From positions 62,001 through 126,000 of the forward strand of contig CATLBR010000005.1 of assembly GCA_949879795.1 (NCBI GenBank): a stretch of 64,000 nt of DNA. Reading direction: 5' to 3'. The position numbers and the translations under genes were made by a program. Position 1 is the first letter of the stretch. Each line of letters opens with the position of its first letter. The notes under the pieces were generated by a model that was not told where the DNA came from, searched no databases, and saw only the letters and a list, made by a program, of their open reading frames with translations. This stretch comes from an uncultured Hungatella sp. Its GTDB lineage: Bacteria > Bacillota > Clostridia > Lachnospirales > Lachnospiraceae. Shown here piece by piece: positions 17,545-31,340 of the stretch.

Positions 17545-17573
17545 TTGACACGGCTCGCTGAATGGGGTAAAAT
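17545..17573 (+). promoter_or_regulatory. sigma-A promoter for the IclR gene
   Basis: A perfect TTGACA and TAAAAT are separated by 17 bases. The three-half-site operator at 17585 starts 12 bases after the -10 box. Confidence 0.8.
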
Positions 17574-17584
17574 AGACAAAAATC

Positions 17585-17609
17585 ATGAATTTAATTTATA
17601 TATATAAAC
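17585..17609 (+). promoter_or_regulatory. IclR operator copy 1 (autoregulatory)
   Basis: This 25-base element is three half-sites: ATGAAT, 3 bases, ATTTAT, 4 bases, ATAAAC. It matches the elements at 18475 and 18571 in layout. Its 16-base core (17594-17609) begins 21 bases after the -10 box, exactly the same offset as in copy 2. The position over the start of the transcript suggests autorepression. Confidence 0.65.
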
Positions 17610-17635
17610 TATGGCAATAGATAGGGGAATCAAGG

Positions 17636-18391
17636 ATGAACAGAACAGTAGAACGTGCATTTTCTATTCTGCAGCTGATCGCCGACAGCAAACACGGCAT
17701 CACTCTGCAGGAGATCGCAAACGAGATGGGAATGGCCAAAAGCAGTGCGTTTGTCATCGTGCAGACGCTTTTGGAACTGGGATATATCTCCACAGTTCAG
17801 AACAACAACAAAAAGTACTGCCTTGGAGTCGAGACCTTCTCTTTGGGTATGAAGTATGTCAACGATATGAGCCTTGTGCGGCAGTGTTCCATCCATCTGC
17901 CGCCTATCGCAGAAAAATATAACAAGACGGCTTTTGTGGCGGTTCTTAACGGGAGCAAGATCGTGTATGTGTACAAATATGTGGCGAAGAACGCCAAACT
18001 GGCCTCTTGTGCCCTGGGGACGAGAAAGGATGTGTATGCCACATCTCTGGGAAAGGCGATTCTGGCTTTCATGCCTTCTGGGGAACAGAGAGAGCTGCTG
18101 GACAAGATCCAATTTCAGGCACTGATGCAGTATACAATCACTTCTAAGGAGAAGCTGGTGAAAGAACTGGAGAGGACCAGAGAGAGAGGCTATTCCGTGG
18201 ATGTGCGGGAACTGGAGGATATCACAAGCTGCTGCGGGGCACCTGTGTTTGACTACAGCGGTCAGGTAGTGGCGGCGGTTTCTCTGTCAGATATCTACAA
18301 CGAGAATCTGGACGATGAGGAGGTGGCCGAAGAACTGAAGGAGGTGGCTATGAATATCTCAAAGGATTTAGGATATTTGCCGAAATCCTGA
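17636..18391 (+). CDS. IclR-family transcriptional regulator (KdgR-like role)
   Basis: This 251-residue protein has an N-terminal winged helix-turn-helix (residues ~6-60; ITLQEIANEMGMAKSSAFVIVQTLLELGYIS). The IclR effector domain follows (residues ~80-250; text such as TSLGKAILAFMPSGE and GYSVDVRELEDITSCCGAPVFDYSG). In proteobacteria the IclR member KdgR represses pectin/uronate genes in response to 2-keto-3-deoxygluconate. Here the gene directly precedes a putative uronide operon and shares a distinctive operator with it, so an analogous role is inferred. There is a weak ribosome site before ATG 17636. About 200 bases separate it from the operon. Confidence 0.92.
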   Translation: MNRTVERAFSILQLIADSKHGITLQEIANEMGMAKSSAFVIVQTLLELGYISTVQNNNKKYCLGVETFSLGMKYVNDMSLVRQCSIHLPPIAEKYNKTAFVAVLNGSKIVYVYKYVAKNAKLASCALGTRKDVYATSLGKAILAFMPSGEQRELLDKIQFQALMQYTITSKEKLVKELERTRERGYSVDVRELEDITSCCGAPVFDYSGQVVAAVSLSDIYNENLDDEEVAEELKEVAMNISKDLGYLPKS

Positions 18392-18434
18392 GAGGTTTGT
18401 GGGAAGATCACTATAAAAAAATATACAAAGTAGG

Positions 18435-18463
18435 TTGACAAAAGGAAAAGCGGAGTGTATAAT
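18435..18463 (+). promoter_or_regulatory. Consensus sigma-A promoter of the uronide operon
   Basis: A perfect TTGACA and perfect TATAAT are separated by 17 bases. It should be very strong when not repressed. The operator at 18475 begins 12 bases after the -10 box. Confidence 0.9.
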
Positions 18464-18474
18464 ATAACTACATT

Positions 18475-18499
18475 ATGAACTTGGTTTATATATATGAAC
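18475..18499 (+). promoter_or_regulatory. IclR operator copy 2 (operon promoter)
   Basis: Three half-sites: ATGAAC, TTG, GTTTAT, 4 bases, ATGAAC. The core GTTTATATATATGAAC (18484-18499) is a near-palindrome. It matches copy 1 at 24 of 28 bases over the extended region and lies at the same distance from its promoter. Confidence 0.75.
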
Positions 18500-18570
18500 T
18501 ATTGTAAGGAGAGACAACAATATGCATGGAAAGGCTTCTGAATCGGAGGCCTAAAAAAATGGATAATTTT

Positions 18571-18595
18571 ATGAACGGAGTTTATAAATATGAAC
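18571..18595 (+). promoter_or_regulatory. IclR operator copy 3 (overlaps start codon at 18590)
   Basis: Three half-sites: ATGAAC, GGA, GTTTAT, 4 bases, ATGAAC. The last half-site contains the start codon of the first operon gene, and the ribosome site GGAG lies between the first two. Lying about 96 bases from copy 2, it could support a repression loop. Confidence 0.65.
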
Positions 18596-19156
18596 AAAGG
18601 AAAAAATTACCAATTCATGTGGTTCGATCTGGTCTTTCTGTCCTTCCTGGCGGCGTTGTCGGAATGGATGAGCAACTCCCTTCTCAGCGTGTGGAACAGC
18701 AGCTTTTATTTCAGTTTTTCCACAGCCATCTGCCTTATAGCCATGATCCGCTGGGGCTGGGCAGGAGTTGTGGTGGGAGTGGCCGGAGGAATGCCCGGTA
18801 TCTGGTTCTCACAGGTGAACCTGGCAGGCGGGATCCTGTTTTACATGGCGGCCAACGGATTTCTGGCAATCCCTATGATCCTCTACGGGGATCGCAGACG
18901 GGATGCTGTCAGCAGCAGAGTTCTGTATCTGGCAGCGTACGTGGTAGTGTGCCATGTGTGTCTGGCTGTGGGGAAGGGAGCGGCTATCCTCGTTCTGACA
19001 GGAGAGCGGACAGGGTTTAAAGATTATTTTGGGGCTACGTTTTTGATCATGGTGATTGATGTGATCGTGTGTGCGGCTCTTGGGACCAGAGAAGGGCTGG
19101 TTTGCGATATGCGGTATTATTTTCAGGAGAGGGAAGGGGAAGATCATGAAGCATGA
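18590..19156 (+). CDS. Unrecognised six-helix membrane protein, first gene of uronide operon
   Basis: This 188-residue integral membrane protein has about six helices (near residues 10-27, 37-55, 56-73, 76-98, 107-135 and 143-165) and a short charged C-terminus. I do not recognise a family. Size and helix count resemble ECF-type S-components or small sugar-transport accessory proteins, but no motif supports that. The start at 18590 has GGAG 9 bases upstream inside an operator copy. The gene overlaps the next (permease) by 11 bases, which ties it to the ABC importer. It may be an accessory subunit, which is inference. Confidence 0.7.
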   Translation: MNKGKNYQFMWFDLVFLSFLAALSEWMSNSLLSVWNSSFYFSFSTAICLIAMIRWGWAGVVVGVAGGMPGIWFSQVNLAGGILFYMAANGFLAIPMILYGDRRRDAVSSRVLYLAAYVVVCHVCLAVGKGAAILVLTGERTGFKDYFGATFLIMVIDVIVCAALGTREGLVCDMRYYFQEREGEDHEA

Positions 19157-20111
19157 CAACATTGAGATGAGGACATCTCAGACAAAGCGGATTTGGAAGG
19201 CGGTGGTGAAGGACTGGCGGCTGTATGTGCTGCTGCTCCCGCTGATCCTGTGGTTTGCAGTGTGGGCCTACAAACCTATGGGTGGGCTGCTCATAGCATT
19301 CAAACGGTTTGACCCCCAATTCGGTGTCTGGGGAAGCGAGTTTAAGGGGATCGACAACTTTATCAACCTGGTGTCGGGGGTGAACAAGACAGAATTCTGG
19401 CAGGCTTTCAGAAATACATTTATCATCAGCGCCTACAACCTGATCTTCGGCTTTCCGGTTCCTATTATTCTGGCTCTGCTTTTTGCGGAGATCGGCAATG
19501 ACCTGGTGAGGAAATTTGCCCAGACAGCTACATACCTGCCTCACTTTTTATCGGAGGTAACTATCACAGGCATCACGCTGATGCTGGTGTACAGCGGCGT
19601 CCGATCCAGTGGGATCGTGGCCTCTTTGTTCCAGCAGCTGGGGCTTCTGGAAGCAGGAACCTCCATGATGCAGAAGGCCAATTATTTCAGGCCCCTGTAC
19701 ATCCTGGTTGGGATCTGGAAAGAAAGCGGATACAACTCCATCGTGTACTTTGCGGCTATCATGGGGATCTCGCCCTCCCTGTATGAGGCCTTGAAGGTGG
19801 ACGGAGGCAACAAGTTCCAGGAGATTCGGTTTGTCACATTTCCGGGCATGGCCCCTACACTGATTATTATGATCATCATGAGGATCGGCAACATGCTGAC
19901 TATCGGCTACGAGAGGGTGCTGCTTTTGTATAATGCCAACATCTATGTGACAGCAGATGTGCTTTCCACCTTTGAACAGAGGCTGGGGATCCTGTCGGGA
20001 AACTATGGAATGGGAGCGGCGGTGAGTCTGTTCAACTCCTTCATCGCCTTTGCCCTGGTGATCGGGGCCAACACTATCAGCAGAAACATATCAGAGACAT
20101 CTCTGTGGTAA
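19146..20111 (+). CDS. Oligosaccharide ABC permease, LplB family
   Basis: This 321-residue permease has six membrane segments. The ORF begins with charged residues, then DWRLYVLLLPLILWFAVWAYKPMGGLLIAF, which is the LplB/YteP signature (Y-x-P-x-x-G-x-x-IAFK). The EAA coupling loop text is SPSLYEALKVDGGNKFQEI (near residues 208-226). These permeases work with YtcP-type partners and large lipoprotein binding proteins to import oligosaccharides such as oligogalacturonides or glycosaminoglycan fragments. ATG 19146 is chosen because it opens with a normal cytoplasmic tail; a longer frame from 19071 lies inside the preceding gene. Confidence 0.93.
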   Translation: MKHDNIEMRTSQTKRIWKAVVKDWRLYVLLLPLILWFAVWAYKPMGGLLIAFKRFDPQFGVWGSEFKGIDNFINLVSGVNKTEFWQAFRNTFIISAYNLIFGFPVPIILALLFAEIGNDLVRKFAQTATYLPHFLSEVTITGITLMLVYSGVRSSGIVASLFQQLGLLEAGTSMMQKANYFRPLYILVGIWKESGYNSIVYFAAIMGISPSLYEALKVDGGNKFQEIRFVTFPGMAPTLIIMIIMRIGNMLTIGYERVLLLYNANIYVTADVLSTFEQRLGILSGNYGMGAAVSLFNSFIAFALVIGANTISRNISETSLW

Positions 20112-20129
20112 GGAAGAAAGGAAGGGGTT

Positions 20130-20993
20130 ATGGAACGGTTAGACAGAAGCGAAAAAATATTTAAGGTGTGCTCCTACACCATGGTGATCGTCTTTGCACT
20201 GCTGGCACTGTACCCGGTGCTGTATGCGTTCAGCGTGTCCATCAGCGGAAAGGTGGCATATGAAAGCGGGCAGATTGTCCTTCTTCCAAAAGATGTGACC
20301 TTTCAGGCCTACGACATGGTTCTGCACAACAAGGGATTCTGGATCGCCTACACCAACACCCTGTTCTACACGGTCATGGGTACGGCGTGGAGCATGGCCA
20401 TATCTCTCACAGGAGCTTACGCTCTGCAGAAGACAAAACTTTTGTTCTGCAGGCAGTGGAATTTTCTCCTGGTGTTCACCATGTGGTTCAGCGCGGGCAT
20501 GATCCCAATGTACTTAAACTACAAGACCATGGGGGTGGACAACCGGTGGGGGATGGTTATCGCTTTCGGCGTACAGGCTTACAACATCATTCTGCTGAGA
20601 AATTACTTCAGCAGTATCCCCAAGGAGATCGAAGAAGCGGCCATTATGGATGGAGCCAATGAGTTTCAGCTGTTTGGGAAGGTGTATATTCCCATGTCCA
20701 CAGCCAGCATTGCCACAGTGACTTTGTTTTATGCTATCAGCAGGTGGAACGGGTACTACTGGTCCAGAATGCTGCTGTCAGACCCATACGAGCAGCCTCT
20801 CCAGGTGTATCTGCGGCAGCTCATTGAAAATTATCAAAAACTGTATGACGAGTCGCCGGTGAATTTGACGTACTCGGCAGACAGTCTGGCATACGCGATC
20901 ATTATCTGTTCGATCGTACCGGTGTTAGTCATTTACCCGTATATACAGAAATACTTTGCAAAAGGTGTGAATGTAGGCGGGGTAAAGGGATAA
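20130..20993 (+). CDS. Oligosaccharide ABC permease, YtcP family
   Basis: This 287-residue permease has six membrane segments and is the second half of the channel. Typical text includes LYPVLYAFSVSISG near residue 25, ALQKTKLLFCRQWNF, and the EAA loop IPKEIEEAAIMDGANEFQLF near residues 165-185. The C-terminal end IQKYFAKGVNVGGVKG is a well-known signature of YtcP/AraQ-like permeases. It lies 18 bases after the LplB-type gene and 34 bases before the binding-protein gene. Confidence 0.94.
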   Translation: MERLDRSEKIFKVCSYTMVIVFALLALYPVLYAFSVSISGKVAYESGQIVLLPKDVTFQAYDMVLHNKGFWIAYTNTLFYTVMGTAWSMAISLTGAYALQKTKLLFCRQWNFLLVFTMWFSAGMIPMYLNYKTMGVDNRWGMVIAFGVQAYNIILLRNYFSSIPKEIEEAAIMDGANEFQLFGKVYIPMSTASIATVTLFYAISRWNGYYWSRMLLSDPYEQPLQVYLRQLIENYQKLYDESPVNLTYSADSLAYAIIICSIVPVLVIYPYIQKYFAKGVNVGGVKG

Positions 20994-21027
20994 AATCAGC
21001 CGAAAAGGCAGAAGGAGGAACTTATTT

Positions 21028-23160
21028 ATGAGAAGAAAAGCAGCAGGTGCTCTGGCGGCAGCGATGATGGCTTCGGCCCTTCTTGCAGGATGCGGCTCTT
21101 CTGTGGTAGAGCAGGCGCAGGAGCAGCAGACAGCAGCCCAGACGACAGCGGCCCAGGCAGCCGGGGGGACTCAGGAGGGCAGCGGACAGGCGGAGGTTCA
21201 GGAGACAGCAGATCTTGCAAAGACCGTGGAGCTGAAATTCAACTACGCGGTGGGAAACAAGTCCAGAACCATGACCTACAACCAGGAATCGCCGTTGACT
21301 CTCCCCGACGGGACCGTGGTGACGGCGGGAATGCTCAAGCCTATGTGGTCCTATGTGGAGAAAGAGTTAAACAGCAAGTTTACGGATGTGACCGTGCAGG
21401 ACATGAAGTCCAGCGATATGATCCAGACAGAGTCCACCTCCAATTTCTTGGGTGCCAATATCTACGGCGGCGAGTCTATAGCGGAGAGGCTGATGTTCTA
21501 CGGGACAGAAGGAAAGTTTGTGAATCTGACTGAGATGATGGAAGCAGGCTATCTGCCCAATTTCAAAAATTATCTGAACAACAACCCGGATGTGAGATCT
21601 GCCATCACTGCCTACGACGGCAATATCTACCATGTGCCCTACATAGCGGAGATCAACCAGATCGCCAGAGCCTTTGAGATCAGAGGCTCCTGGGTTACAG
21701 AGCTGTTGGATCAGACAGACGCATCCTATGACACGGACAGATTTGATATTTATTATCAAGGATTCTACATAGGTGATAATAAGAGGACCGGTGACAACGG
21801 CGGCACGGTGACTCCCAAGGAGGGTGTGAACATTGCCAAGAAGACAGATGCCAATATCATTGAGATCCAAAACAGCCTTGACGTGAAAAACGGCGAGACC
21901 CTGACAGGTGCTCTGATTCAGTATATCAACGACAATTATGATTATGATACACCGTCACAGTTATATGTAGGAGAAAAAGCTGCCTACGATATTGATGAGC
22001 TTATCGCCCTGATGCGGTGCATCAAAGCTAACCCTCATTATCTCACAGACGGCAGAGCCGATGTGGTGTGGCCTCTGTTTACGAGGCAGTCCTCCTACAG
22101 AGAGGAACTGGTAAGGCTGGCCACCTACTTTGGAGGTGTGAAAGTTCACGGCGCCGATTCTTACAAGGCGACATGGTATATTGATGAGAACGGAAAGGTA
22201 CAGTACACCTACAGTGAGGAGGGCATTTATAATGTACTTTGCTATCTGTCCGACATGGAGGCAGAGGGGTTGATCTATTCTGACTGCTATGATCTGACTG
22301 ACAAGACCAATTATCGCTCGACTCTCTGGGGAACCGACGACGGGGATGCTCCTTCCTTTGGATTTATGACCTATGACTTTATCGCGTCCTCCACATCCGA
22401 TTCTCTCAACAAAGACACCATCGTGATCCTGCCTCCTGTGGCAAAGGTGAACGGTGTATGGCAGTACTACATGGACAACGGCCGGGCCATCAAGCCTGAC
22501 GGCTGGGCCATCTCCATCGCAGGTTCTACCCAGGAACAGATTGACAGAGCCTGCGCGGTGCTGGACTACTTCTTCACAGCAGAAGGCGCTGTGCTGCAGA
22601 ACTACGGGCTTCCCATGATCCTGGAGGAGAACGAAAAGTACGAGGGACCAGACGGGATCTCCTACCCCAAGTTTAACTCATGGGTAACCGAGACCTGCAA
22701 TGCCGTAGCCAAAGGAGATCTGTCCACATTTTTAAGAGATTGGATGGGGTGTCTGATGCCCATTGGCTATCAGAAGGAGATCGGTTTCGAGTATCAGTAC
22801 ACCTCTGAGAGAGGCTTTGAGGGATGGGCTTTGCTGCAGGGTTCCACTCTTCACATTGCCACCTACGCAGGAGAAGGTCCTGACGGGGACAATCCAAACT
22901 ATTATAAGATGATACCGCCGGTGTTCTCGCTTACTTCCAGACAGAAGGAGACTATATCTGACTCCACATCCATCGAGTCAGACGACATCGTAGAGTACAT
23001 GTTCAACATCGTCCGCTACCGCACCAAAGGCAATGCTCCCCAGGGGGCAGAGGTGGCTCAGACTTATGAGGAGTACGCGGCGAAATTTGCCGCGAGAGGA
23101 CTTGACCTTTATGAGCAGACATATCAGGCAGCTTATGATGTAATGATCCTTGGGAACTGA
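21028..23160 (+). CDS. Extracellular solute-binding lipoprotein, LplA-like (large)
   Basis: This 710-residue lipoprotein has signal peptide with lipobox LAGC and lipidated Cys22, then a Gln/Ala/Thr-rich linker to about residue 60. The binding domain is much larger than the ~430-550 residues usual for sugar-binding proteins. This fits the oversized family 1 members that accompany LplB/YtcP permeases. Text such as IKPDGWAISIAGSTQEQIDRACAVLDYFFTAEGAVLQNYG near residues 490-530 is the conserved tail-side motif of such proteins. It should capture the oligosaccharide outside the cell. A hairpin follows the stop codon. Confidence 0.9.
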   Translation: MRRKAAGALAAAMMASALLAGCGSSVVEQAQEQQTAAQTTAAQAAGGTQEGSGQAEVQETADLAKTVELKFNYAVGNKSRTMTYNQESPLTLPDGTVVTAGMLKPMWSYVEKELNSKFTDVTVQDMKSSDMIQTESTSNFLGANIYGGESIAERLMFYGTEGKFVNLTEMMEAGYLPNFKNYLNNNPDVRSAITAYDGNIYHVPYIAEINQIARAFEIRGSWVTELLDQTDASYDTDRFDIYYQGFYIGDNKRTGDNGGTVTPKEGVNIAKKTDANIIEIQNSLDVKNGETLTGALIQYINDNYDYDTPSQLYVGEKAAYDIDELIALMRCIKANPHYLTDGRADVVWPLFTRQSSYREELVRLATYFGGVKVHGADSYKATWYIDENGKVQYTYSEEGIYNVLCYLSDMEAEGLIYSDCYDLTDKTNYRSTLWGTDDGDAPSFGFMTYDFIASSTSDSLNKDTIVILPPVAKVNGVWQYYMDNGRAIKPDGWAISIAGSTQEQIDRACAVLDYFFTAEGAVLQNYGLPMILEENEKYEGPDGISYPKFNSWVTETCNAVAKGDLSTFLRDWMGCLMPIGYQKEIGFEYQYTSERGFEGWALLQGSTLHIATYAGEGPDGDNPNYYKMIPPVFSLTSRQKETISDSTSIESDDIVEYMFNIVRYRTKGNAPQGAEVAQTYEEYAAKFAARGLDLYEQTYQAAYDVMILGN

Positions 23161-23168
23161 TGAATTGA

Positions 23169-23190
23169 GGAGGGGGAAAGCTCCCCCTCC
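23169..23190 (+). other. Intra-operon hairpin after binding-protein gene
   Basis: A perfect 9-bp stem (GGAGGGGGA / TCCCCCTCC) has a 4-base loop and no T-run. It probably protects the 3' end of the binding-protein mRNA and gives partial read-through to the following genes. Confidence 0.65.
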
Positions 23191-23214
23191 CTGGTAAAAA
23201 GGTGGGAGCTGATT

Positions 23215-23748
23215 ATGCAGAAACTATTCAGGGTACAGAAGGTTATGGCATGGGTTTACACGGTTACGGCGCTGGCTGTATTTTTGTATACCCTGGTGTT
23301 TATGACAGAATATAAAGATCTGTTCGGCTTAAAGCTGAAGCAGAACAGTCAGATATCATTTTTTCACGATTCTGTTCTCCAGACATTTAACAGACAGATA
23401 TTCGCTCTGGCGCTGGTCGGGATCCTGGTTATCGTGTTTTCTTTCTTTTTGGAGATTTTTACTAAAGTTCCGGATCTGTTTGCCCTTGTGGTGCTGTTTG
23501 CATGTTTGACAGGCTGTGCCGGCGGAGCGGTGTATGCCATCACCAATATACAGGCAGTGGAGGCTTTTTATAGAGGCCTTGATTTTCAGTATCTTTATCT
23601 GGAGGGACTGGCGGACTATGAGCACAAGTTTACTACCTTTCGGGCAGGCGTGGGAGTTTATGTGCTGCAGATCGTTTCCTGTGCCGCTTACGGGGCGGCT
23701 ATGGTGATGAGTCATGTGAGGTTTAAAAAACTGAGTGCAGCAGAATGA
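23215..23748 (+). CDS. Unrecognised four-helix membrane protein
   Basis: This 177-residue protein has about four hydrophobic segments (near residues 10-30, 60-82, 86-110 and 142-165). A ~30-residue soluble stretch lies between the first two and another (FYRGLDFQYLYLEGLADYEHKFTTF) before the last. I recognise no family. The ribosome site GGTGGGAG precedes ATG 23215. It sits between the importer's binding protein and ATPase, next to another protein of the same kind, so a supporting role in transport or assembly is plausible but unproven. Confidence 0.65.
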   Translation: MQKLFRVQKVMAWVYTVTALAVFLYTLVFMTEYKDLFGLKLKQNSQISFFHDSVLQTFNRQIFALALVGILVIVFSFFLEIFTKVPDLFALVVLFACLTGCAGGAVYAITNIQAVEAFYRGLDFQYLYLEGLADYEHKFTTFRAGVGVYVLQIVSCAAYGAAMVMSHVRFKKLSAAE

Positions 23749-23763
23749 AAGGGCGTATAAGAG

Positions 23764-24225
23764 ATGAATGATCGATCAATGGAGAGAGAAAAAAAGGCTT
23801 TGGTGTCTTTATATAAAAGGGACAGCCTGTCTTACACTCTGGCTTTGTGCGGCATTGCGGCGGAGCTTGTGTATGTCATAGGCATCCTGGATGTGATGGC
23901 GGTGAGTTTCTGGATGGGGGTCACTGTCATGGTGAATATTGCGGTGCTGTTCGCGCTGTTTACCTGTGCCGTAAAGATGAATATCTATGACAGATGGTGG
24001 GCAGGGGCGGCGGTGTGTCTGGGGGTGTACATGGCGTTTCGGCAGGTGATTCTGGTACCTGTGATCTTAAAACCTTATGACAGACAGTTCCTCATAGGGG
24101 CGGCCAACGCAGCGGGAACGGTTCTTCTGGTGGCTGCGGGGATGATCAGCCAGACGAGGAGCAGCCGGAGGAAACATATGGAAGAGAGGCTGGAACAATC
24201 AGAAAGCGAAAAGGGGATGAGGTGA
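23764..24225 (+). CDS. Unrecognised four-helix membrane protein
   Basis: This 153-residue protein has about four membrane segments (near residues 21-40, 42-65, 76-98 and 104-127) and a charged C-terminal tail (SRRKHMEERLEQSESEKGMR). No family was recognised. It follows the previous small membrane gene by 15 bases and precedes the ATPase by 4 bases, so all three must be co-translated from one mRNA. Shape and position suggest it belongs with the other small membrane proteins of the operon. Confidence 0.65.
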   Translation: MNDRSMEREKKALVSLYKRDSLSYTLALCGIAAELVYVIGILDVMAVSFWMGVTVMVNIAVLFALFTCAVKMNIYDRWWAGAAVCLGVYMAFRQVILVPVILKPYDRQFLIGAANAAGTVLLVAAGMISQTRSSRRKHMEERLEQSESEKGMR

Positions 24226-24229
24226 TAAT

Positions 24230-25336
24230 ATGGGAAGCCTGCAGTTTCGCAGTGTGAATAAAATCTATTCCAACGGATTCCACGCAGTCCACAACTTTGA
24301 TCTGGAAGTGAAAGACGGAGAGTTTATTGTGTTTGTGGGGCCTTCCGGCTGTGGCAAATCCACAGTGCTGCGGATGATCGCAGGGCTGGAGGCCATATCT
24401 GACGGGGAGCTGGTGTTGGACGGAAAAGTGATCAATAAGTGTCCGCCGGTGGAGAGAGATATCGCCGTGGTGTTTCAGGACTACGCCCTCTACGGAAACA
24501 TGACGGTCTACGATAATGTGGGGATGAGTCTGAGAGTGCGGCATGAGAAGAGCACGGTGATCTATGACAAGGTGCAGGAGGCCTCCGGGATGCTGGGGCT
24601 GAAAGGTCTTTTAAAAAGACTTCCGGGCCAGCTGTCAGGCGGGCAGAAGCAAAGAGTGGCTCTGGCCAGGTCGGTTGTCCGCCAGCCCAAGGTGTTCCTT
24701 ATGGATGAACCACTGTCCAACTTGGATGCAAAACTGAGGAACAGCACCAGAGGAGAGATCGTAAAACTTCAGAGAGATCTGGATGTGACCACTATTTACG
24801 TGACCCATGACCAGACGGAAGCCATGACCATGGCGGATCGGATGGTGGTGATGAAGGACGGGATTATCCAGCAGGTGGGAACTCCCAAGGAGATCTACTA
24901 TGAGCCAAAGAATCTGTTCGTCGCCGGATTTATCGGCGCGCCTCAGATGAATTTTGTGGAGGGGATCGTGGAGGGCGGAGAGTTCGTGTTTGGGAAGAGC
25001 CGAGTTTTGCTGCCGGAAAAGGCCAAAAAGGGGCTTTCCTCCTATCAGGATCGGAAACTGATTCTGGGGATCCGTCCGGAACAGTTTGCCGTCGCAGACG
25101 GTCCGGGAGAGACTGTGGTGTCAGGAAAGCTGGAGAATAAGGAGTTCCTGGGCAACTACCACATTTTGTACGTCAATGTGGGAGGGCAGATGCTGGTATG
25201 CCGCATCGACGGTCTGGAGGACCGGTTTGACGAGACGGTTTATATAAAATTTGAGATGGAACATCTGTATTTCTTTGACACGGAGACAACGGAATTGGTG
25301 CTGTACGCAAAAGAGGGAGAAAATGATGAAAAATAA
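24230..25336 (+). CDS. Sugar ABC ATPase, MsmX/UgpC family
   Basis: This 368-residue ATPase has Walker A GPSGCGKST (near residue 38), signature LSGGQKQR (near 135), Walker B VFLMDEPLSNLDAKL and the switch histidine in YVTHDQTEAMTM. A C-terminal OB/TOBE regulatory domain (residues ~235-360) contains GIRPEQF. MsmX-type ATPases energise many carbohydrate importers. LplB/YtcP systems often lack their own ATPase, so having a dedicated one inside the operon is noteworthy. Its stop codon lies 14 bases inside the next gene. Confidence 0.95.
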   Translation: MGSLQFRSVNKIYSNGFHAVHNFDLEVKDGEFIVFVGPSGCGKSTVLRMIAGLEAISDGELVLDGKVINKCPPVERDIAVVFQDYALYGNMTVYDNVGMSLRVRHEKSTVIYDKVQEASGMLGLKGLLKRLPGQLSGGQKQRVALARSVVRQPKVFLMDEPLSNLDAKLRNSTRGEIVKLQRDLDVTTIYVTHDQTEAMTMADRMVVMKDGIIQQVGTPKEIYYEPKNLFVAGFIGAPQMNFVEGIVEGGEFVFGKSRVLLPEKAKKGLSSYQDRKLILGIRPEQFAVADGPGETVVSGKLENKEFLGNYHILYVNVGGQMLVCRIDGLEDRFDETVYIKFEMEHLYFFDTETTELVLYAKEGENDEK

Positions 25337-25730
25337 AATAGCGAAGGGCCTCATTGCGGTCAGTTCTCTGGCTCATCTGGTATTTGCCAACATCCATGTA
25401 AAGGCGCTGCTTTTGCTGGAGAATGAGATCTGCGGATTTATCATGTTTTTGTTTGTGCTGTTCGGGCTGGTGACTCTGTTTGAGATGACAAGGATCAAAA
25501 AGAGCCGGCTGTCAGGCCAGGCGCTGACGGCAGCCTTCTGCTTTGTGACCATCGGGTTCGGGCTCGGGCTTACCTCTATCTACAGGCAGGCCATAGCCGG
25601 CCAGAGGGCTCTGGAGACAGCCTCGGTCTCAAAGGCTGTAGGATTTTCCTTCATACTGATGGCAGCTTACGCCTGTGCAGGGGTGCTGCTTGTCCTGGAG
25701 CTGGCAAAGCACGGCAGGCATACAGCCTGA
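25323..25730 (+). CDS. Unrecognised four-helix membrane protein
   Basis: This 135-residue protein has four hydrophobic segments (near residues 8-28, 33-52, 62-85 and 105-128). Two adjacent start codons (25323 and 25326) share the ribosome site GAGGGAG, and both overlap the ATPase stop. No family was recognised. It is the third small membrane gene clustered around the ATPase. Confidence 0.62.
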   Translation: MMKNKIAKGLIAVSSLAHLVFANIHVKALLLLENEICGFIMFLFVLFGLVTLFEMTRIKKSRLSGQALTAAFCFVTIGFGLGLTSIYRQAIAGQRALETASVSKAVGFSFILMAAYACAGVLLVLELAKHGRHTA

Positions 25731-25760
25731 AAAAGTTGAGAAACGTCAGGAGGATCAGGA

Positions 25761-26306
25761 GTGCTTATGGGAAAGGATTCGGCACAGAGGAAAAAGTGGT
25801 TATCGGACAATAAAAAGGCTTCCCTGCTGAGATGGTGGCTTGCGGGGATGTGCTATTTCTTCATCGGTTTCGGCACCCAGGCGGGAATGTTCACAGATCC
25901 GGTGGATCTGGTGTTCTTCCTGGGGGCGGGGATCGGGCTTGTGACTATTGTCATCTATAATCCCATCGCCTACGGCATGTTCGACATCACAAGGAAGGGG
26001 CAGATCGCCAACAAGGCTTACTATGAGAGAAAAGGCTGGCAGAACGCAGGGTACCGTCTGGCTGAGATCTTTAAGAGCATGTTTCTGACGGCCATGGTGT
26101 ACTTCACATACCAGAATGTGAATCTTTTGATAGTCAGTATCTGGGATCTGCCGGGGGAGACCGTGGTGATTCCGGGAGAACCGTTCGGGTTTGCCACCCT
26201 GTATGTGGTGTACTATTATATGCTTCAGGGGATCGTAGATACTATCAGGAACGCAAGGGGAAAAGACGGAGGTGAACGCAGTGGAGAGACTGGTATTCAT
26301 AGGTGA
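25761..26306 (+). CDS. Unrecognised membrane protein upstream of lyases
   Basis: This 181-residue protein has four to five hydrophobic segments (near residues 24-42, 46-66, 110-130 and 140-160) and a charged loop with KAYYERKGWQNAGYRLAEIFKSM between them. The family is not recognised. GTG 25761 (AGGAGG 7 bases upstream) and ATG 25767 (AGGAG 5 bases upstream) are both possible starts. The 3' end overlaps the first lyase gene by 26 bases. It may be a transporter accessory like the other small membrane genes in the operon. Confidence 0.62.
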   Translation: MLMGKDSAQRKKWLSDNKKASLLRWWLAGMCYFFIGFGTQAGMFTDPVDLVFFLGAGIGLVTIVIYNPIAYGMFDITRKGQIANKAYYERKGWQNAGYRLAEIFKSMFLTAMVYFTYQNVNLLIVSIWDLPGETVVIPGEPFGFATLYVVYYYMLQGIVDTIRNARGKDGGERSGETGIHR

Positions 26307-28284
26307 TCCGGAACCCTGTATGACACAGCGGGACGGGAAGAGAAAGAGACAGTACAGACGGCTTTTAGAGCAGGCGGACCGGTACCGGGAGATGGAGCTG
26401 CCAAAGGAGCACCCTAAGGAGAGCACTACCTATATGGGGATCGCCATTGTGAACCTGGCCCTGGCTTACCGATTGAGCAGGGAGGAGCGGTATCTGGGAG
26501 AGGCGAAGCGGTTTATGGAGACGGTGTGCTCCTACGAGAAATGGGGCAATGCCCATCTGGTCAATGTGGATCTGTCCGCCTCCTGGATTCTCTTTGGGCT
26601 TTCTCTGGGCTATGACTGGCTGAAACCCTGGCTGACAAGTGAGGAGCGGGGCAGGATATCAGAAAAGATCCTGCACCACGCCCAGGTCATCTTTCAGTAC
26701 AGGCGAGATACATACGGCCAGGGCTGGTCCACGGCCTTCTACCAGAATCACAACTGGATCAATATGACAGGCCTGGCAGCGGCCGGGTATGTGCTGGCGG
26801 GGGAGGAGAAAGGGTCTGAGGCCCAAAAAGTTTCCAGCCAATATATCCAGGAGGCGAGAGAAGATTTTGCCAGAGTATTTTCCTATCTGGCTGAAGATGG
26901 TTCCAACTATGAAGGGGTGGCCTACTGGCGGTACGGGGGCATGTGGCTGTTTGTCTATGCCCACCTTCTGAAGATCCAGGAGGGAAAGGACTATTTTAAG
27001 GAGAGCGGCTATCTGAGGCATACCTTCTACTACCGCCTCTACCAGTCCTGCGGAGATTTCCGGCAGCAGATGAATTTCGGAGACTGCCATGACCGGCACA
27101 GCGGCCACGCGGCCTGCGTCTACTACAAGGTGGCGGCAGAGTACAAGGACGGGTTTGCCCAGACATTCGGCAACATGGTGGTGGACGAGTTCCTCATGGA
27201 GGAAGCCTGTGAGAGCAAGGTAAAACCGGGGATCCTGCCGGAGGCGTGTTTTGAGTATCTGTGGTACGACCCCGACGTGGAGGAGAAGGACTTATCCCTC
27301 CTTCCAAAAGTATGGTACTTTGAGGATCTGGGCCTTCTGGGGATCCGTGACAGCTGGCAGCGTGACGGAAAAGTACTGACCATCAAGTGCGGGTATCCCG
27401 GGGGAAGAAAACAGTGGGAGACGGGGCGGAGGCTTTACAGGGAGGAGAATATCTGCTGTCTCAGCTTATCTCACCATCATCCTGACAATCTGTCCTACAT
27501 CTTTGCAAGGGGAAGCGAGTACTTGACCTGTGAGGACGGATATAACCGGAACATCATGCCGGACAATCATAACGTGATCCTGGTGGACGGGTCTTATGCA
27601 GATGTGACCGATGTGTCCGATGTGTACATAGGCAGCGCCATGCTGCGGCAGGCGGAGGAAGAGCCGGGTTGGGAGAAAGATTACGGCGGCCGGGTGACTG
27701 CGATGAAAGTGGATGGTTCGGTGGTGATCTACCGGGGAGAGACCTCCGGCATCTACCCCAAAAGACTGGAGATGGAAGAGGTAAGCCGTCTGCTGTTCAC
27801 GGACGGTCTGGATTTCTGGGTCTTCGTGGATGTGCTGAGGAGCAGAAAGGAACATATCTATGAGATCATCTGCAACACAGACGCAGAAGCCGCAGTGAAT
27901 GGAGAGGGATTTGTCTACGATATGAAGACAGGACCTGTCCGCTATACCGTCTTTTCTGACAGGGGGATACGGTGCAGAACCTATACCCAGAAGATCGAGA
28001 GCATTATGACAAGCCAGGAGCCGGACAAAGTGTGCAGGACCGATATCCATACATTGTCGCAGAGGTCCAAGAACCGGGAGAGGCGGCAGGTGTTCTTTGA
28101 ATGCTTTACTTTTGAGGATGAGGACACAGAGGTATTTATGGAAGAAGAGAGCTTAAAAGTGAGACAAGGGACAAAGCGGTACGAATTTCAGACCGTATGG
28201 CAGGAAGACCCTGCGTCCGGCACCATACCCATAAAGATAAGGATCAGAGATGAAGATGGCAGAGAGGTCTGCTATGACGCATAG
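26281..28284 (+). CDS. Heparinase II/III-family polysaccharide lyase, cytoplasmic
   Basis: This 667-residue protein has the heparinase II/III layout: an N-terminal alpha/alpha toroid (~residues 50-320) and a C-terminal beta-sandwich from about 360. Candidate catalytic residues are Asn156-His157 in FYQNHNWINM and Tyr210/Tyr215 in DGSNYEGVAYW. The sandwich has HHHPDNLSYIFARG and the family motif HNVILVDG. There is no signal peptide, so it probably acts inside the cell on imported oligosaccharides. GTG 26281 is chosen because GGAGG is 8 bases upstream; GTG 26272 is an alternative. Family members act on alginate, heparin and related uronic polymers by beta-elimination; the exact substrate is not determinable. 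Related non-lyase members exist, so activity is inferred. Confidence 0.8.
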   Translation: MERLVFIGDPEPCMTQRDGKRKRQYRRLLEQADRYREMELPKEHPKESTTYMGIAIVNLALAYRLSREERYLGEAKRFMETVCSYEKWGNAHLVNVDLSASWILFGLSLGYDWLKPWLTSEERGRISEKILHHAQVIFQYRRDTYGQGWSTAFYQNHNWINMTGLAAAGYVLAGEEKGSEAQKVSSQYIQEAREDFARVFSYLAEDGSNYEGVAYWRYGGMWLFVYAHLLKIQEGKDYFKESGYLRHTFYYRLYQSCGDFRQQMNFGDCHDRHSGHAACVYYKVAAEYKDGFAQTFGNMVVDEFLMEEACESKVKPGILPEACFEYLWYDPDVEEKDLSLLPKVWYFEDLGLLGIRDSWQRDGKVLTIKCGYPGGRKQWETGRRLYREENICCLSLSHHHPDNLSYIFARGSEYLTCEDGYNRNIMPDNHNVILVDGSYADVTDVSDVYIGSAMLRQAEEEPGWEKDYGGRVTAMKVDGSVVIYRGETSGIYPKRLEMEEVSRLLFTDGLDFWVFVDVLRSRKEHIYEIICNTDAEAAVNGEGFVYDMKTGPVRYTVFSDRGIRCRTYTQKIESIMTSQEPDKVCRTDIHTLSQRSKNRERRQVFFECFTFEDEDTEVFMEEESLKVRQGTKRYEFQTVWQEDPASGTIPIKIRIRDEDGREVCYDA

Positions 28285-28301
28285 AAAGGGAATGCAGATT
28301 T

Positions 28302-30212
28302 ATGAATTACATCAATGACAAGTTTGACCAGCTTATCCGGTCGGAAGAGAACCAGAAGATCATAGAGGCCATGAGGGGTGATGTGGATCAGTTTATGCCG
28401 GGCTTTTGTGATTCCGCGGAAAAATTAAGCCGGTGGGGCCACTGGTATTTCTGTGATGACGACGGGGGAAGACTGATCTTTGATCTGAATTCTCCTCATG
28501 AACACCGATGTGAAGTGTGCGGCAAAGTGTATGGAGACGAGATCCTGGACGGAGTGTGGACCACCTTTTACCGGAATAGGGCCGTGATCATGGCTCTGGT
28601 GTCTGCAGTGATCTACCGGGCCACCAGAGAGAGAAAATATTTTGATTATACGGTGAAGGTCATCGGATTTTATGCGGATTACTACAAAGAGTTTCCCCTG
28701 CACAACAAAGAAAATGACCACTGTGACTCTTACGACACTATGGTGTGGGGCTGTGGAAAAATGATGCCTCAAGGGCTCAACGAGTCCATCGTGGCTATTC
28801 GGTTTGTCCAGGCCATCGAGATCTTAAGGGAGGAGTTGGACGAAGGGTGGCTTAAGGGAGTGTACCGTAATTTGTTCAGGGAGGTATTTCATCTTCTCGC
28901 CCCACAGGTCACCTCCATCCACAATATCAGCTGCTGGGATCTGTCGGCCATCGGCGTCATGGGTCTGGCCTTCCGGGATCAGGAGATGATAGATTTCGCC
29001 TTTAACAGCGAGTTCAATATCAGGGAACAGCTTAAAAAAGGCGTCACCCAAGATTTCTTCTGGTATGAGGGCTCTATCCACTACAATTTCTTCCTTCTGG
29101 AGGGAATCTCCTACCTGTTTTTGTTCAGCAGGCTCTACAGATATGAGTTTGGCGAGGAGAGCAGCCGGATCTTCGAGAATATGTTCATTCAGGCCTATCA
29201 CTACGCCTTTGACAACCAGTATCTGCCCAATCCCAATGACGGCTGGCCCAATCTGAACTTAAAGACCTTCAGTTACGTGTACCACACGGTAGCCCGGGCT
29301 TTTGGGGAGGACAGCCCTGTGGGCAATTTAACCAAGATCATAGAGACATCTCGGGAGCCAAGGACGATCCTCCCGCTGTCGGAACCTTACTACTGTGAAA
29401 ACCGAGTGTGTCTGGAACAACTTCTGTTTAATATTGATTTTGACTATGCCACGGTTATCCCTGTGGAGAGGACTTCCAGGAATTTCCCCAGATCCAACTT
29501 TGTGATGCTGCGAAACCAGAACTGGAATGTGTTTATGAAATACGGTCTCAACGGCAGATCTCATGCCCATCCGGATATTATGAATGTGGAGATCATGTAC
29601 AAAGGCCGCAGGATCACAAGAGATCTGTCCAACGCGGGCTATCAGTCCCGGCTGTGCAACGAGTGGCACCGGAAGACACTGTCCCATAACACAGTGTGCT
29701 ACAACGGGACTGATATCACCTCCGTGAGTCCGGGAGAATGTCTGTACTACGACGGCGGCAGGGTCATGGCCCTGGCAAGGCAGGTCTATGAGGGGATTGA
29801 TTACCAGAGAACCTTGACGGTCACGGAGGATCAGGTGGAAGATGATTTCCGGATCAAGAGTCAGAAAGAGGGGATCTATGATTATGTATTCCACTTCGAG
29901 TCGGACATCCGCTTAATCTGTGACCTTGTGTGCAGGGAGGCAGATTTAGAGTTTGACATGAACGGTTACCAGCATATTCTGGAGACCAGGAAAGTTGAGA
30001 CTGAAAAGCGGCAGATAAGTCTTAAGGCAGAGGGAGACGGATGCAGATTGGAGGTTACGGCGGAACTGGAAGAAGGGCAGGAAGTGTACCTGCTGAAGAC
30101 TATGGACAATCCGGTGAACAGGACCCGCAGTACGATTTTAATAAGGAGCAGCATACCTTCCCCAGAGTATCATCTGAGGATCAAAGAAGATAAAGGAGAG
30201 AAAACATTATGA
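28302..30212 (+). CDS. Heparinase II/III-family polysaccharide lyase, cytoplasmic (second copy)
   Basis: This 636-residue protein is only distantly similar to its neighbour. It begins with a Cys-x2-Cys element (HRCEVCGKVY, Cys70 and Cys73) often seen at the N-terminus of such lyases and possibly metal-binding. The toroid has His207-Asn208 (SIHNISCW) and Tyr255 in FFWYEGSIHYNF. The beta-sandwich has the strong family pattern SHAHPDIMNVEIMYKG (His421, His423) and TLSHNTVCYNG (His462). There is no signal peptide. Two distinct intracellular lyases suggest stepwise or two-linkage cleavage. It ends with ATGA overlap into the SDR gene, so the two are translationally coupled. Confidence 0.85.
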   Translation: MNYINDKFDQLIRSEENQKIIEAMRGDVDQFMPGFCDSAEKLSRWGHWYFCDDDGGRLIFDLNSPHEHRCEVCGKVYGDEILDGVWTTFYRNRAVIMALVSAVIYRATRERKYFDYTVKVIGFYADYYKEFPLHNKENDHCDSYDTMVWGCGKMMPQGLNESIVAIRFVQAIEILREELDEGWLKGVYRNLFREVFHLLAPQVTSIHNISCWDLSAIGVMGLAFRDQEMIDFAFNSEFNIREQLKKGVTQDFFWYEGSIHYNFFLLEGISYLFLFSRLYRYEFGEESSRIFENMFIQAYHYAFDNQYLPNPNDGWPNLNLKTFSYVYHTVARAFGEDSPVGNLTKIIETSREPRTILPLSEPYYCENRVCLEQLLFNIDFDYATVIPVERTSRNFPRSNFVMLRNQNWNVFMKYGLNGRSHAHPDIMNVEIMYKGRRITRDLSNAGYQSRLCNEWHRKTLSHNTVCYNGTDITSVSPGECLYYDGGRVMALARQVYEGIDYQRTLTVTEDQVEDDFRIKSQKEGIYDYVFHFESDIRLICDLVCREADLEFDMNGYQHILETRKVETEKRQISLKAEGDGCRLEVTAELEEGQEVYLLKTMDNPVNRTRSTILIRSSIPSPEYHLRIKEDKGEKTL

Positions 30213-30943
30213 GAGCAGTGATTACAGGAGGAACAAGGGGCATTGGACTGAGCGCGGCGGCAGCTCTTGGAAAGGCCGGCTATGATATTATCATCACAGG
30301 GATCGACAAGGAGGCATCCGTGTCCGCCCTGAAAGAGTTGGAGGACAACGGCATTAAAGGAGAATTTATTTATGCGGATTCCATGAACGAGGATGATGTG
30401 AACCGCTGCTTTGAGGAGATCGCCCGGAAATATGATTCTCTGGATGTGTTGGTGAACAATGTGGGCGGTCTTGGGGGACGTCAGAGATTTGAAGGTATGG
30501 AGACGTCCTTTATGAGAAAGGTGATGGCCCTGAACTTTGACAGTGCGTTTTTTGCCAGCCGGGCGGCGATCCCTCTGTTGAAGAAGGGGAGCCATCCTTC
30601 CATCATCAACTACAGTACCATCGCAGTCACCTCCGGAGGAGGTCCGGGCGCAGGCATCTACTCTGCCAGCAAGGCGGCTATCGAGGGTCTGACCAGGGCA
30701 CTGGCAAAAGACCTTGCCGAGTATGGGATCAGAGTCAATGCCGTGTCCCCGGGAACCATTGACACCGACTTCCACGCGGCTACCAAGAGAGATATCATGG
30801 AGACCTGGAAAGCCGGCATTGTCATGAAGCGGTTTGGAAAGCCGGAGGAAGTGGCATCAGTCATCGAATTCCTGGCTTCCGAGAAGGCATCTTTTCTCAC
30901 CGGCGAGATCATCCAGATCAACGGCGGTCAGGCATTTATCTAA
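30209..30943 (+). CDS. Short-chain dehydrogenase (candidate uronate reductase)
   Basis: This 244-residue SDR has dinucleotide motif TGGTRGIG (residues ~6-13), NNVGG, catalytic Ser in INYSTIAV and the YSASK active-site pair, ending TGEIIQINGGQAFI. Classical SDRs of this kind include KduD, FabG and the 4-deoxy-L-erythro-5-hexoseulose uronate (DEH) reductases of alginate pathways. Position after two lyases and before a KdgF-like cupin makes a DEH or deoxy-ketouronate reductase the best reading, giving 2-keto-3-deoxygluconate. Sequence alone cannot separate these. The ATGA overlap with the lyase stop is clear. Confidence 0.88.
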   Translation: MRAVITGGTRGIGLSAAAALGKAGYDIIITGIDKEASVSALKELEDNGIKGEFIYADSMNEDDVNRCFEEIARKYDSLDVLVNNVGGLGGRQRFEGMETSFMRKVMALNFDSAFFASRAAIPLLKKGSHPSIINYSTIAVTSGGGPGAGIYSASKAAIEGLTRALAKDLAEYGIRVNAVSPGTIDTDFHAATKRDIMETWKAGIVMKRFGKPEEVASVIEFLASEKASFLTGEIIQINGGQAFI

Positions 30944-30976
30944 TACAGATACGCAAGAATATACGAGGTGGAGAAT

Positions 30977-31297
30977 ATGGTTTTAAAGTATGAGGACATC
31001 ACTGCCACAAAGCCGTCGCCGGGGATCACCAGAAGGATCCTGGCCAGAGGCGGAACGATGATGGGTGTGGAGGCATCTTTTGAAAAAGGGGCGGTGGGCG
31101 AGGTCCATCGGCATGAACACGAGCAGGTCAGCTACATCGTCTCCGGCTCCTTTCGCTACACGGCGGACGGAGAGACCTATGAGCTGAAAGCAGGGGACAG
31201 CTACTATGTGGCTCCTAACGTATCCCACGGGGCAGTGGCCCTGGAGGACTCTGTGATTTTAGATATCTTTACCCCTCAGAGGGAAGACTTTCTGTAA
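30977..31297 (+). CDS. kdgF: KdgF-like cupin (unsaturated uronate linearisation)
   Basis: This 106-residue single-domain cupin has metal ligands HRHEHEQ (His44, His46, His48, Gln50) and His84 in VSHGAV. The C-terminal DIFTPQREDFL (Asp96, Arg102) resembles the catalytic tail of KdgF. KdgF opens 4,5-unsaturated monouronates released by lyases or glucuronyl hydrolases into the linear keto form used by the reductase. ATG 30977 is preferred over GTG 30968, with GAGG 8 bases upstream. It is the last gene of the operon, followed by a terminator. Other small cupins look alike, so the context carries much of this call. Confidence 0.82.
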   Translation: MVLKYEDITATKPSPGITRRILARGGTMMGVEASFEKGAVGEVHRHEHEQVSYIVSGSFRYTADGETYELKAGDSYYVAPNVSHGAVALEDSVILDIFTPQREDFL

Positions 31298-31304
31298 AAA
31301 TTAC

Positions 31305-31340
31305 AAAAGGCCGGCACCGTATATGGATGCCGGTCTTTTT
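31305..31340 (+). terminator. Terminator of the uronide operon
   Basis: A 12-bp stem (AAAAGGCCGGCA with TGCCGGTCTTTT) is extended by two GC pairs across a bulge and ends in a T-run, eight bases after the cupin stop. With A-tract and T-tract it could also work from the other strand. Confidence 0.88.

Follow-up and report, generated by a model that had tools for sequence, protein, structure and literature searches.

A putative operon for alginate-type oligouronides with two divergent lyases in Clostridia

Which oligosaccharide does a Clostridia-type cell take up and cleave when an importer, two heparinase-fold lyases, a short-chain dehydrogenase/reductase (SDR) and a KdgF-like cupin are encoded in one unit? 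This question is raised by a stretch of 64,000 nucleotides (hereafter the window) from an uncultured Hungatella sp., which is part of one contig (C5) of a metagenome-assembled genome (MAG) of 2.63 Mb and 65% completeness. On its plus strand, to which all coordinates below refer, 14 tightly packed genes (17636-31297) constitute one IclR-controlled unit. With moderate confidence, we read this unit as an inducible operon for importing alginate-type oligouronides and degrading them exolytically inside the cell to 2-keto-3-deoxygluconate (KDG), with divergent lyases.

In the proposed route, an AlgQ-like lipoprotein would pass the oligosaccharide to an ATP-binding cassette (ABC) importer of the AlgM1-AlgM2 type with its own ATPase, and two exolytic beta-elimination lyases would shorten it in the cytoplasm. 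Lyase 2, which has the fold of polysaccharide lyase (PL) family 17 without the second neutraliser His, would act on residues with C5-H and O4 in syn, i.e. mannuronate and possibly glucuronate. Lyase 1, with a site of the PL15/heparinase II/epimerase type whose His is the anti base in heparinase II, would act on the other C5 epimer (guluronate) or on both. KdgF would open the unsaturated monouronate to 4-deoxy-L-erythro-5-hexoseulose uronate (DEH), the SDR would reduce DEH to KDG, and a KDG kinase and a 2-keto-3-deoxy-6-phosphogluconate (KDPG) aldolase encoded elsewhere would finish the pathway. The IclR protein would bind the three operators and keep the unit repressed until it is released by an intermediate, perhaps KDG. 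This alginate-type reading is based on the SDR motifs, the KdgF residues, the matches to AlgM and AlgQ, the lyase folds, an operator at a PL7 gene in a relative, PL38-like genes, the distribution of PF05426, the KDPG aldolase and an analogous cluster in Bacillus weihaiensis.

Conservation of the operon and its operator

Gene presence in the window was checked by open reading frames combined with Pfam and NCBIfam searches. All the genes named in the original prediction, which had been made from this sequence alone (IclR regulator, permeases, binding protein, ATPase, two lyases, SDR and cupin), are present, and five small membrane proteins of the unit (mp1 to mp5) have to be added to its list. 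Two other genera of the family carry all 14 genes in identical order and most of the block recurs at other loci, which is beyond chance.

We scanned named genomes for relatives of lyase 2. With the single protein no relative was found, and a three-row alignment returned 17 loci; the scan needs short exact patterns and so misses relatives. Two distant loci (L070 and L071, 24%) were excluded from the counts; of the remaining 15, two (L055 and L066) lie on the very contigs that carry the blocks of the two other genera. Lyase 1, mp5 and lyase 2 (the query) are found at all 15 loci, the SDR, the ATPase and mp4 at 14, the cupin at 13 (it was not found in L056), the permeases, the binding protein and mp2 at 12, mp3 at 11 and mp1 at 7. 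One locus (L067) breaks off inside lyase 2, and in two others (L060 and L064) a contig end truncates the importer side. The block is rearranged and more diverged in six mollicute-type MAGs of 1.2-2.5 Mb (L062-L065, L068 and L069), five of which are so titled while L065 ('uncultured bacterium') was grouped with them by its genes. At these six loci, as in L060, the cupin gene precedes the SDR gene, and four of the six have iclR at the 3' end.

Cultured carriers are Lacrimispora celerecrescens, L. defluvii and Clostridium spp. Few genomes of the family have the operon: 3 out of 299 encode a close lyase 2 (9 out of 299 at E 1e-20, distant ones included) and 3 out of 397 encode lyase 1 at E 1e-40. 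Within the genus of the window, lyase 1 was found in 2 out of 26 genomes at E 1e-10, and only its own copy is close.

Some loci carry additional genes on the 3' side, namely a gene like those of glycoside hydrolase (GH) family 88 in five (L055, L056, L061, L063 and L069), a UxuA-like gene in one (L066, inside the operon) and a PL7 gene in one (L060). Moreover, a PL38-like gene follows the SDR gene at all six mollicute-type loci. In genome G426, the block is found on two contigs, whose ends suggest a single operon. The first contig holds iclR, mp1, both permeases, the binding protein, mp2 and mp3 (40-80% identity, 39% for mp3) together with a PL7 gene; the second holds the rest of the unit and, after the SDR gene, a PL7 gene without signal-like start whose best PDB match is A1-II'. 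Two further observations were made downstream of the operon in relatives: an IS110-type transposase gene lies between the cupin and GH88 genes of L055 (L015:2122-3333, same contig, genome G253), and L. celerecrescens carries a PL12-like heparinase gene with Hepar_II_III_N and Hepar_II_III_C domains (L057:14144-16162).

The regulator gene (17636-18391) encodes an IclR-family protein of 251 amino acids (Pfam IclR_C 6e-37, HTH_IclR 2.4e-13) that reaches 151 bits with the NCBIfam KdgR model, under the cut-off of 275. It is preceded by the promoter TTGACA-17-TAAAAT (17545-17573), with 11 out of 12 positions of the sigma-A consensus, and the operon promoter (18435-18463) has 12 out of 12. The operator pattern TGAACNNNGTTYATAWWTATGAAC has three matches in the window for 0.01 expected. 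Operator O0 (17586-17609), before iclR, shows three mismatches to the consensus and has counterpart sites in relatives. O1 (18476-18499), directly after the -10 of the operon promoter, and O2 (18572-18595), overlapping the mp1 start, are exact matches conserved in relatives. Downstream of mp1, the gaps between successive genes range from -35 to +54 nucleotides. These features agree with the single strong, operator-controlled transcript that had been predicted. A terminator-like hairpin with a T-run (31311-31340) was read from the sequence; the terminator scan itself listed this hairpin for the minus strand only.

The operator was then searched with up to three mismatches in the ten of the 16 operon-bearing genomes that are not mollicute-type. 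It gave 36 matches, against 4 in all for the reversed control pattern. Twenty-four of the 36 are located at the operon, its iclR or an adjacent PL7 gene, as are all 19 matches with two mismatches or fewer. Given this concentration and the low control count, the motif has the appearance of an operator dedicated to this locus. In G426, it follows the -10 of the PL7 alginate-lyase gene that is divergent from iclR, a 1343-amino-acid open frame with a signal-peptide-like start (by eye).

Importer, keto-uronate reduction and pathway genes

Permease 1 (19146-20111), of the AlgM1/LplB type, matches AlgM1 in the PDB at 1.6e-76, and permease 2 (20130-20993), of the AlgM2/YtcP type, matches AlgM2 at 5e-88, the next match (SugB) being at 3.3e-15. 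The solute-binding lipoprotein-type protein of 710 amino acids (21028-23160) matches AlgQ1 and AlgQ2 at about 1e-28 and the next solute-binding protein at 9e-8; in the alignment, it does not retain the NGNGKADE stretch of AlgQ2. The UgpC/MsmX-type ATPase (24230-25336) displays the Pfam domains ABC_tran, OB_MalK and TOBE_2 and 422 bits with the NCBIfam UgpC model, for a cut-off of 432. The LplB/YtcP/binding-protein importer with its own MsmX-like ATPase, as originally proposed, is thus supported. The nearest solved relatives of both permeases and the binding protein are AlgM1, AlgM2 and AlgQ, which is no proof of specificity since few such importers are in the PDB.

The small membrane proteins mp1 (18590-19156), mp2 (23215-23748), mp3 (23764-24225) and mp4 (25323-25730) each have about four transmembrane stretches by hydropathy, and mp5 (25761-26306; 13 sequences aligned) has one clear stretch. 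For mp4, the ATG at 25323 is the likely start, the searches having used 25320. None of the five matches a Pfam family above cut-off. Besides its seven loci, mp1 occurs in G426 on another contig than the lyases, and mp2 to mp5 are found in most mollicute-type loci with 22-38% identity.

The SDR (30209-30943) is identical to the DEH reductase A1-R' at 94 out of 239 positions (39%). Both share the motifs NNxGGLxGR, GGGxGAGxY and PGTxDTxFH, whereas FabG 2p68, which has a slightly better overall score, is without them. Of the 15 SDR orthologues, all keep GGLGGR, GGxGAGxY and PGTIDTxFH, 14 have NN before the first of these motifs and 8 have the third G of GGG. The cofactor motif TGxxxGxG, described for the A1-R type (PMC8778563), is present in 15 out of 15, and the window copy has YSASK, with the Tyr and Lys of the triad. 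At the presumed place of the A1-R' Ser (catalytic Ser150 in the A1-R type), the window SDR has Thr and the mollicute-type orthologues have Ser. From these likenesses, the SDR probably reduces DEH to KDG, in line with the keto-uronate reductase of the original prediction. Keto-uronates from glucuronate or galacturonate are described as routed via KduI or DhuI (PMC12838403, PMC8778563); by our own stereochemical argument, direct reduction would fit a keto-uronate from mannuronate or guluronate.

Two other identities were considered for the SDR. KduD was rejected: none of its models ranks within the best 25 for this protein, and a separate SDR, found beside KduI in a mollicute-type genome, has another motif (NNAGIIKR) and a gluconate 5-dehydrogenase as best match, with KduD models below cut-offs. 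A UxuB-type fructuronate reductase was envisaged on account of the UxuA-like gene that adjoins the SDR gene at one locus.

The cupin gene (30968-31297, with ATG 30977 as the likelier start) encodes a protein with a sequence match to KdgF. In a gapless alignment with BeKdgF, the metal ligands His50, His52, Gln56 and His90 correspond to H47, H49, Q53 and H87, and the catalytic Asp102, Phe104 and Arg108 to D99, F101 and R105. All seven published residues are therefore kept, and the predicted KdgF-like cupin is upheld. The published legend prints Glu56 where the text gives three His and one Gln (PMC11381880); the aligned chain has Gln.

For the rest of the pathway, we compared 33 genomes, 16 operon-bearing and 17 operon-free relatives chosen by hand, mostly at least 90% complete. 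The KDPG aldolase is found in all 16 operon-bearing genomes. The kinase and aldolase had been expected outside the window; in the MAG, contig C1 indeed carries the aldolase gene with a KDG-kinase-like gene (best match an aldolase/kinase fusion model, below cut-off), and a PL38-like gene lies about 4 kb from them. Strong matches to PF05426 (>150 bits) occur in 13 of the 16 operon-bearing and in 2 of the 17 operon-free genomes (P = 8e-5, without correction for relatedness). With the threshold set by the search itself, the first count stays at 13 out of 16 and the second rises to 4 out of 17.

The two lyases and the question of the substrate

Lyase 2 (28302-30212; 636 amino acids) has PL17 alginate lyases as sequence matches (3e-13). 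Its structural model has a predicted local distance difference test score (pLDDT) of 83.0, with poorly modelled active-site loops at 419-423 and 445-449. The toroid plus beta-sandwich fold is closest to PL17, four alginate lyases of that family supplying the chains of the ten best Foldseek matches, with template modelling (TM) scores of 0.66-0.72 by query. The NCBIfam oligoalginate lyase model gives 48.9 bits and its cut-off of 1400 is not reached; lyase 2 has the PL17 fold but is not filed as PL17. The His-Asn pair of the PL17 oligoalginate lyases Alg17c, AlyA3 and Smlt2602 is kept as His207-Asn208. In contrast, the neutraliser His that follows this Asn (AlyA3 N199-H200, PMC12336832; Alg17c N201-H202 and Smlt2602 H208, PMC4765187) is replaced by Ile209 in 15 out of 15 aligned sequences, L067, cut inside the gene, being left out. 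Nine more distant homologues keep the His and a tenth, PL12-like, does not; thus, among those compared, Ile209 marks this operon family. The acid Tyr, Y258 in Alg17c, seems displaced by one: Tyr261, adjoining His260, is invariant and also present in all ten distant homologues. It is a better candidate than the Tyr255 put forward originally, for which the PL17 enzyme 9irq has Asn in the alignment. Tyr447 is invariant too, one column off the PL17 Tyr450 in the pairwise alignment. Unlike in the three PL17 enzymes, C51, C70 and C73 near the N-terminus are invariant; metal binding by them would be speculation.

Lyase 1 (26272-28284; 670 amino acids) is a DUF4962/dermatan-sulfate-epimerase-like toroid protein (Pfam DUF4962 46.6 bits, cut-off 28.7; no match to Hepar_II_III_C). 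Among solved sequences, human dermatan-sulfate epimerase 1 comes nearest (1.6e-16), followed by a PL35 chondroitinase and PL15. The model, built from 16 sequences, has a pLDDT of 85.3, with low confidence at residues 214-220. The best fold match is the epimerase 6hzn (TM 0.79 by query) and the next is PL15 Atu3025 (0.69), the 50 listed fold matches sharing 9-18% identity. Epimerase residues N204, H205, Y261, H450, H452, E470 and Y473 align with N159, H160, Y218, H401, H403, E421 and Y424, the epimerase numbering being chain positions + 22, an offset chosen because it yields the published residues. Six of these positions are invariant (16 out of 16), and E421 is Asp in six sequences. Of the epimerase metal ligands, His452 aligns with the invariant H403, Glu470 with the variable E421 and Asn481 with H433, adjoining the invariant N434. 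The proposed catalytic triad of the epimerase, H205, Y261 and Y473 (PMC8006597), corresponds to H160, Y218 and Y424.

By alignment, lyase 1 thus appears to retain the active site of dermatan-sulfate epimerase, PL15 and heparinase II. It resembles epimerase 1, PL15, PL21 and PL35 in fold and active-site residues but differs from them by its low identity, the lack of a signal-like stretch and the missing Hepar_II_III_C match. Of the residues first proposed, Asn156 and His157 stand (N159 and H160 with an offset of +3); Tyr210, or Tyr213 if that offset holds, is not aligned with epimerase Tyr261, a place taken by Tyr218. Because His202 of heparinase II, the equivalent of H160, is described as the anti base for iduronate (PMC12088678), we assign lyase 1 by analogy to the C5 epimer on which lyase 2 would be expected to perform poorly. 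A simple hydropathy scan, with no signal-peptide program run, revealed no transmembrane-like stretch in either lyase, in agreement with the two cytoplasmic heparinase-fold lyases predicted. A profile comparison of the two lyases (112 columns, probability 21%) was too weak to use.

Several observations weigh against an alginate-type substrate. Lyase 2 is without the PL17 neutraliser His and has His260 at the position aligned with the acid Tyr. LplB/YtcP-type permeases in general may resemble AlgM1 and AlgM2 likewise, and KdgF also occurs in pectin routes. The importer of L069 is not adjacent to the lyases. PL7 (PF08787) is found in only 1 out of 16 operon-bearing genomes (0 out of 17 operon-free). 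GH88, which is needless for homopolymeric alginate, is encoded downstream at 5 of the 15 loci. Finally, KduI, an isomerase of pectin and glycosaminoglycan routes, is encoded elsewhere in 14 of the 16 operon-bearing genomes, the set searched for it; it was not found in the MAG, 65% complete, nor in G427. The original prediction had used the absence of GH88 and KduI as an argument for alginate. Both absences hold in the window, where no KduI/DhuI-type isomerase family is among the Pfam results of the unit. Given the GH88 genes downstream in relatives and three GH88-family matches in the MAG itself, the absence of GH88 says little against glucuronate substrates, and we rejected both absences as proof of alginate. 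The tilt towards alginate-like oligouronides nevertheless survives as the best reading. We also dropped a pectin reading, since the lyases, the motifs of the SDR and the partners of KdgF agree better with other readings.

The rival that survives best, although we consider it unlikely, is a glucuronan-type (beta-1,4-linked glucuronate) or mixed mannuronate/glucuronate substrate, lyase 2 being a natural exolytic glucuronate lyase. Ile209 stands at the place of Smlt2602 His208, and the H208F change is reported to raise exolytic glucuronan activity 28-fold, keeping about 30% of the activity on polymannuronate and 5% on polyguluronate; however, H208A and H208W brought little or no gain, so that loss of the His need not suffice (PMC4765187). 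The UxuA-like gene inside one of the 15 operons and UxaC in 16 out of 16 operon-bearing genomes would suit a glucuronate route, but UxaC also occurs in 11 out of 17 operon-free genomes. When UxuA was searched in three genomes, it was found in G194 and G253 and not in the MAG. One PL38 enzyme is described as multi-specific (PMC11381880), which is compatible with glucuronan as well. Conversely, the SDR resembles DEH reductases, whose route suits a keto-uronate derived from mannuronate or guluronate, the operon has no KduI, and the same operator is found at the PL7 alginate-lyase gene of G426.

A bolder proposal, to which we give about as little credence, is that the two proteins represent two new lyase families or subfamilies that divide a mixed oligouronide between them according to C5 configuration. 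Having Ile for the PL17 His, lyase 2 would be a natural exolytic glucuronate/mannuronate lyase like the engineered Smlt2602 H208F, lyase 1 would act on the C5 epimer, and the importer would have up to five accessory small membrane subunits.

Less likely still is an operon for glycosaminoglycans or another glucuronate/iduronate heteropolymer, in which the lyases would release unsaturated disaccharides and GH88 would finish the breakdown. The proximity of lyase 1 to dermatan-sulfate epimerase and PL35 chondroitinase would fit, as would the KduI genes of operon-bearing genomes and the downstream GH88-like genes, whose G253 copy matches unsaturated glucuronyl hydrolases at 2e-56, just under the Pfam cut-off; in G253, a sulfatase gene also lies about 8 kb from iclR. 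Yet no GH88 match was obtained at 10 of the 15 loci (contig ends truncate some of them), the window unit holds no KduI/DhuI-type isomerase, no hexosamine genes appear among its Pfam results, and lyase 2 together with the added PL38 and PL7 genes points to homopolyuronides. Lastly, it is highly improbable that lyase 1 is an intracellular uronate C5-epimerase converting residues for lyase 2: its best sequence and fold match is an epimerase whose triad it keeps, and very small alterations are stated to suffice for making an epimerase out of a lyase (PMC8006597), but the double Tyr also occurs in heparinase II and Atu3025 (PMC8006597), the corresponding His/Tyr/His are found in PL15, PL15_2 and PL21 lyases (PMC12088678), and a catabolic operon hardly needs an epimerase if each epimer has its lyase.

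Known systems and neighbouring genes

Read as an alginate-type system, the operon is compact and testable in cultured Clostridia strains, besides its occurrence in mollicute-type MAGs. Its two lyases are distant from solved families, and Ile209 provides a precise residue prediction for the choice between mannuronate and glucuronate. If the reading is true, Clostridia able to live on alginate fragments could be recognised by this operon. We found no prior description of it among the matches listed for open-licence papers, which is a weak negative. For the comparison with B. weihaiensis, we take 'pectin degradation protein' to be a name of KdgF.

The nearest published locus is the cluster Bw800-Bw807 of B. 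weihaiensis Alg07, which is kelp-induced and whose activities were tested. It already combines, like the window operon, ABC permeases and a binding protein, a signal-less oligoalginate lyase (of PL15), a DEH reductase of the SDR type whose annotation reads 3-oxoacyl-ACP reductase, and a 'pectin degradation protein'; its KDG kinase and aldolase are encoded outside the cluster, as in the window genome. It differs by its two-component regulator in place of IclR and by its single PL15 lyase in place of an epimerase/PL15-like and a PL17-like one. In addition, the passages on the cluster name neither an ATPase nor small membrane proteins, whereas the window operon has both (PMC5128808). According to a review, genetic studies of how Firmicutes metabolise alginate are still needed (PMC8286568).

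Sphingomonas sp. A1 (AlgQ1/Q2-AlgM1M2SS, A1-R/A1-R') resembles the window in importer architecture, cytoplasmic exolyase and type of DEH reductase. It is described with a pit and superchannel for the polymer, the regulator AlgO, the exolyase A1-IV and A1-R genes far from the cluster (PMC8286568, PMC8778563), while the SDR, KdgF and two lyases of the window are encoded within the importer operon. Among Bacteroides loci, which contain PL6, PL17, PL38 and KdgF, the alginate locus of B. eggerthii pairs a PL17-type lyase with KdgF, like the window operon, and CP926 of Bacteroides ovatus pairs PL17 with PL38, like the mollicute-type version; BePL6 and BePL17 have signal peptides and are most probably periplasmic (PMC11381880).

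Other observations concern the surroundings and distant relatives. Immediately upstream of the operon, a gene (14788-17403) encodes an 871-amino-acid flavoprotein with two FMN-binding (flavin mononucleotide) stretches, FAD_binding_2 and a lipoprotein-like start (by eye); downstream are a chromate-transporter gene pair (31490-32675) and an aconitase-family gene (33780-36071). A distant family (20-25%) of lyase-like proteins of about 670 amino acids combines a zinc-finger-like CPxC motif with an HNH pair (L017-L023, L070 and L071). At several of its Lachnospiraceae-family loci, response regulators and ABC permeases adjoin, and the family also occurs in Kluyvera and Biostraticola. In the MAG, a locus on contig C30 looks like a pectin one, with GH28-like and GH88-family genes (partly by eye). 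Contig C10 contains a frame of 2388 amino acids (L098:6094-13260) with a signal-like start, CBM96, two Alginate_lyase stretches, four Big_3 domains and choline-binding repeats, which is possibly a surface depolymerase; an ABC importer (by eye) and GH28, GH31 and GH88 genes are encoded nearby.

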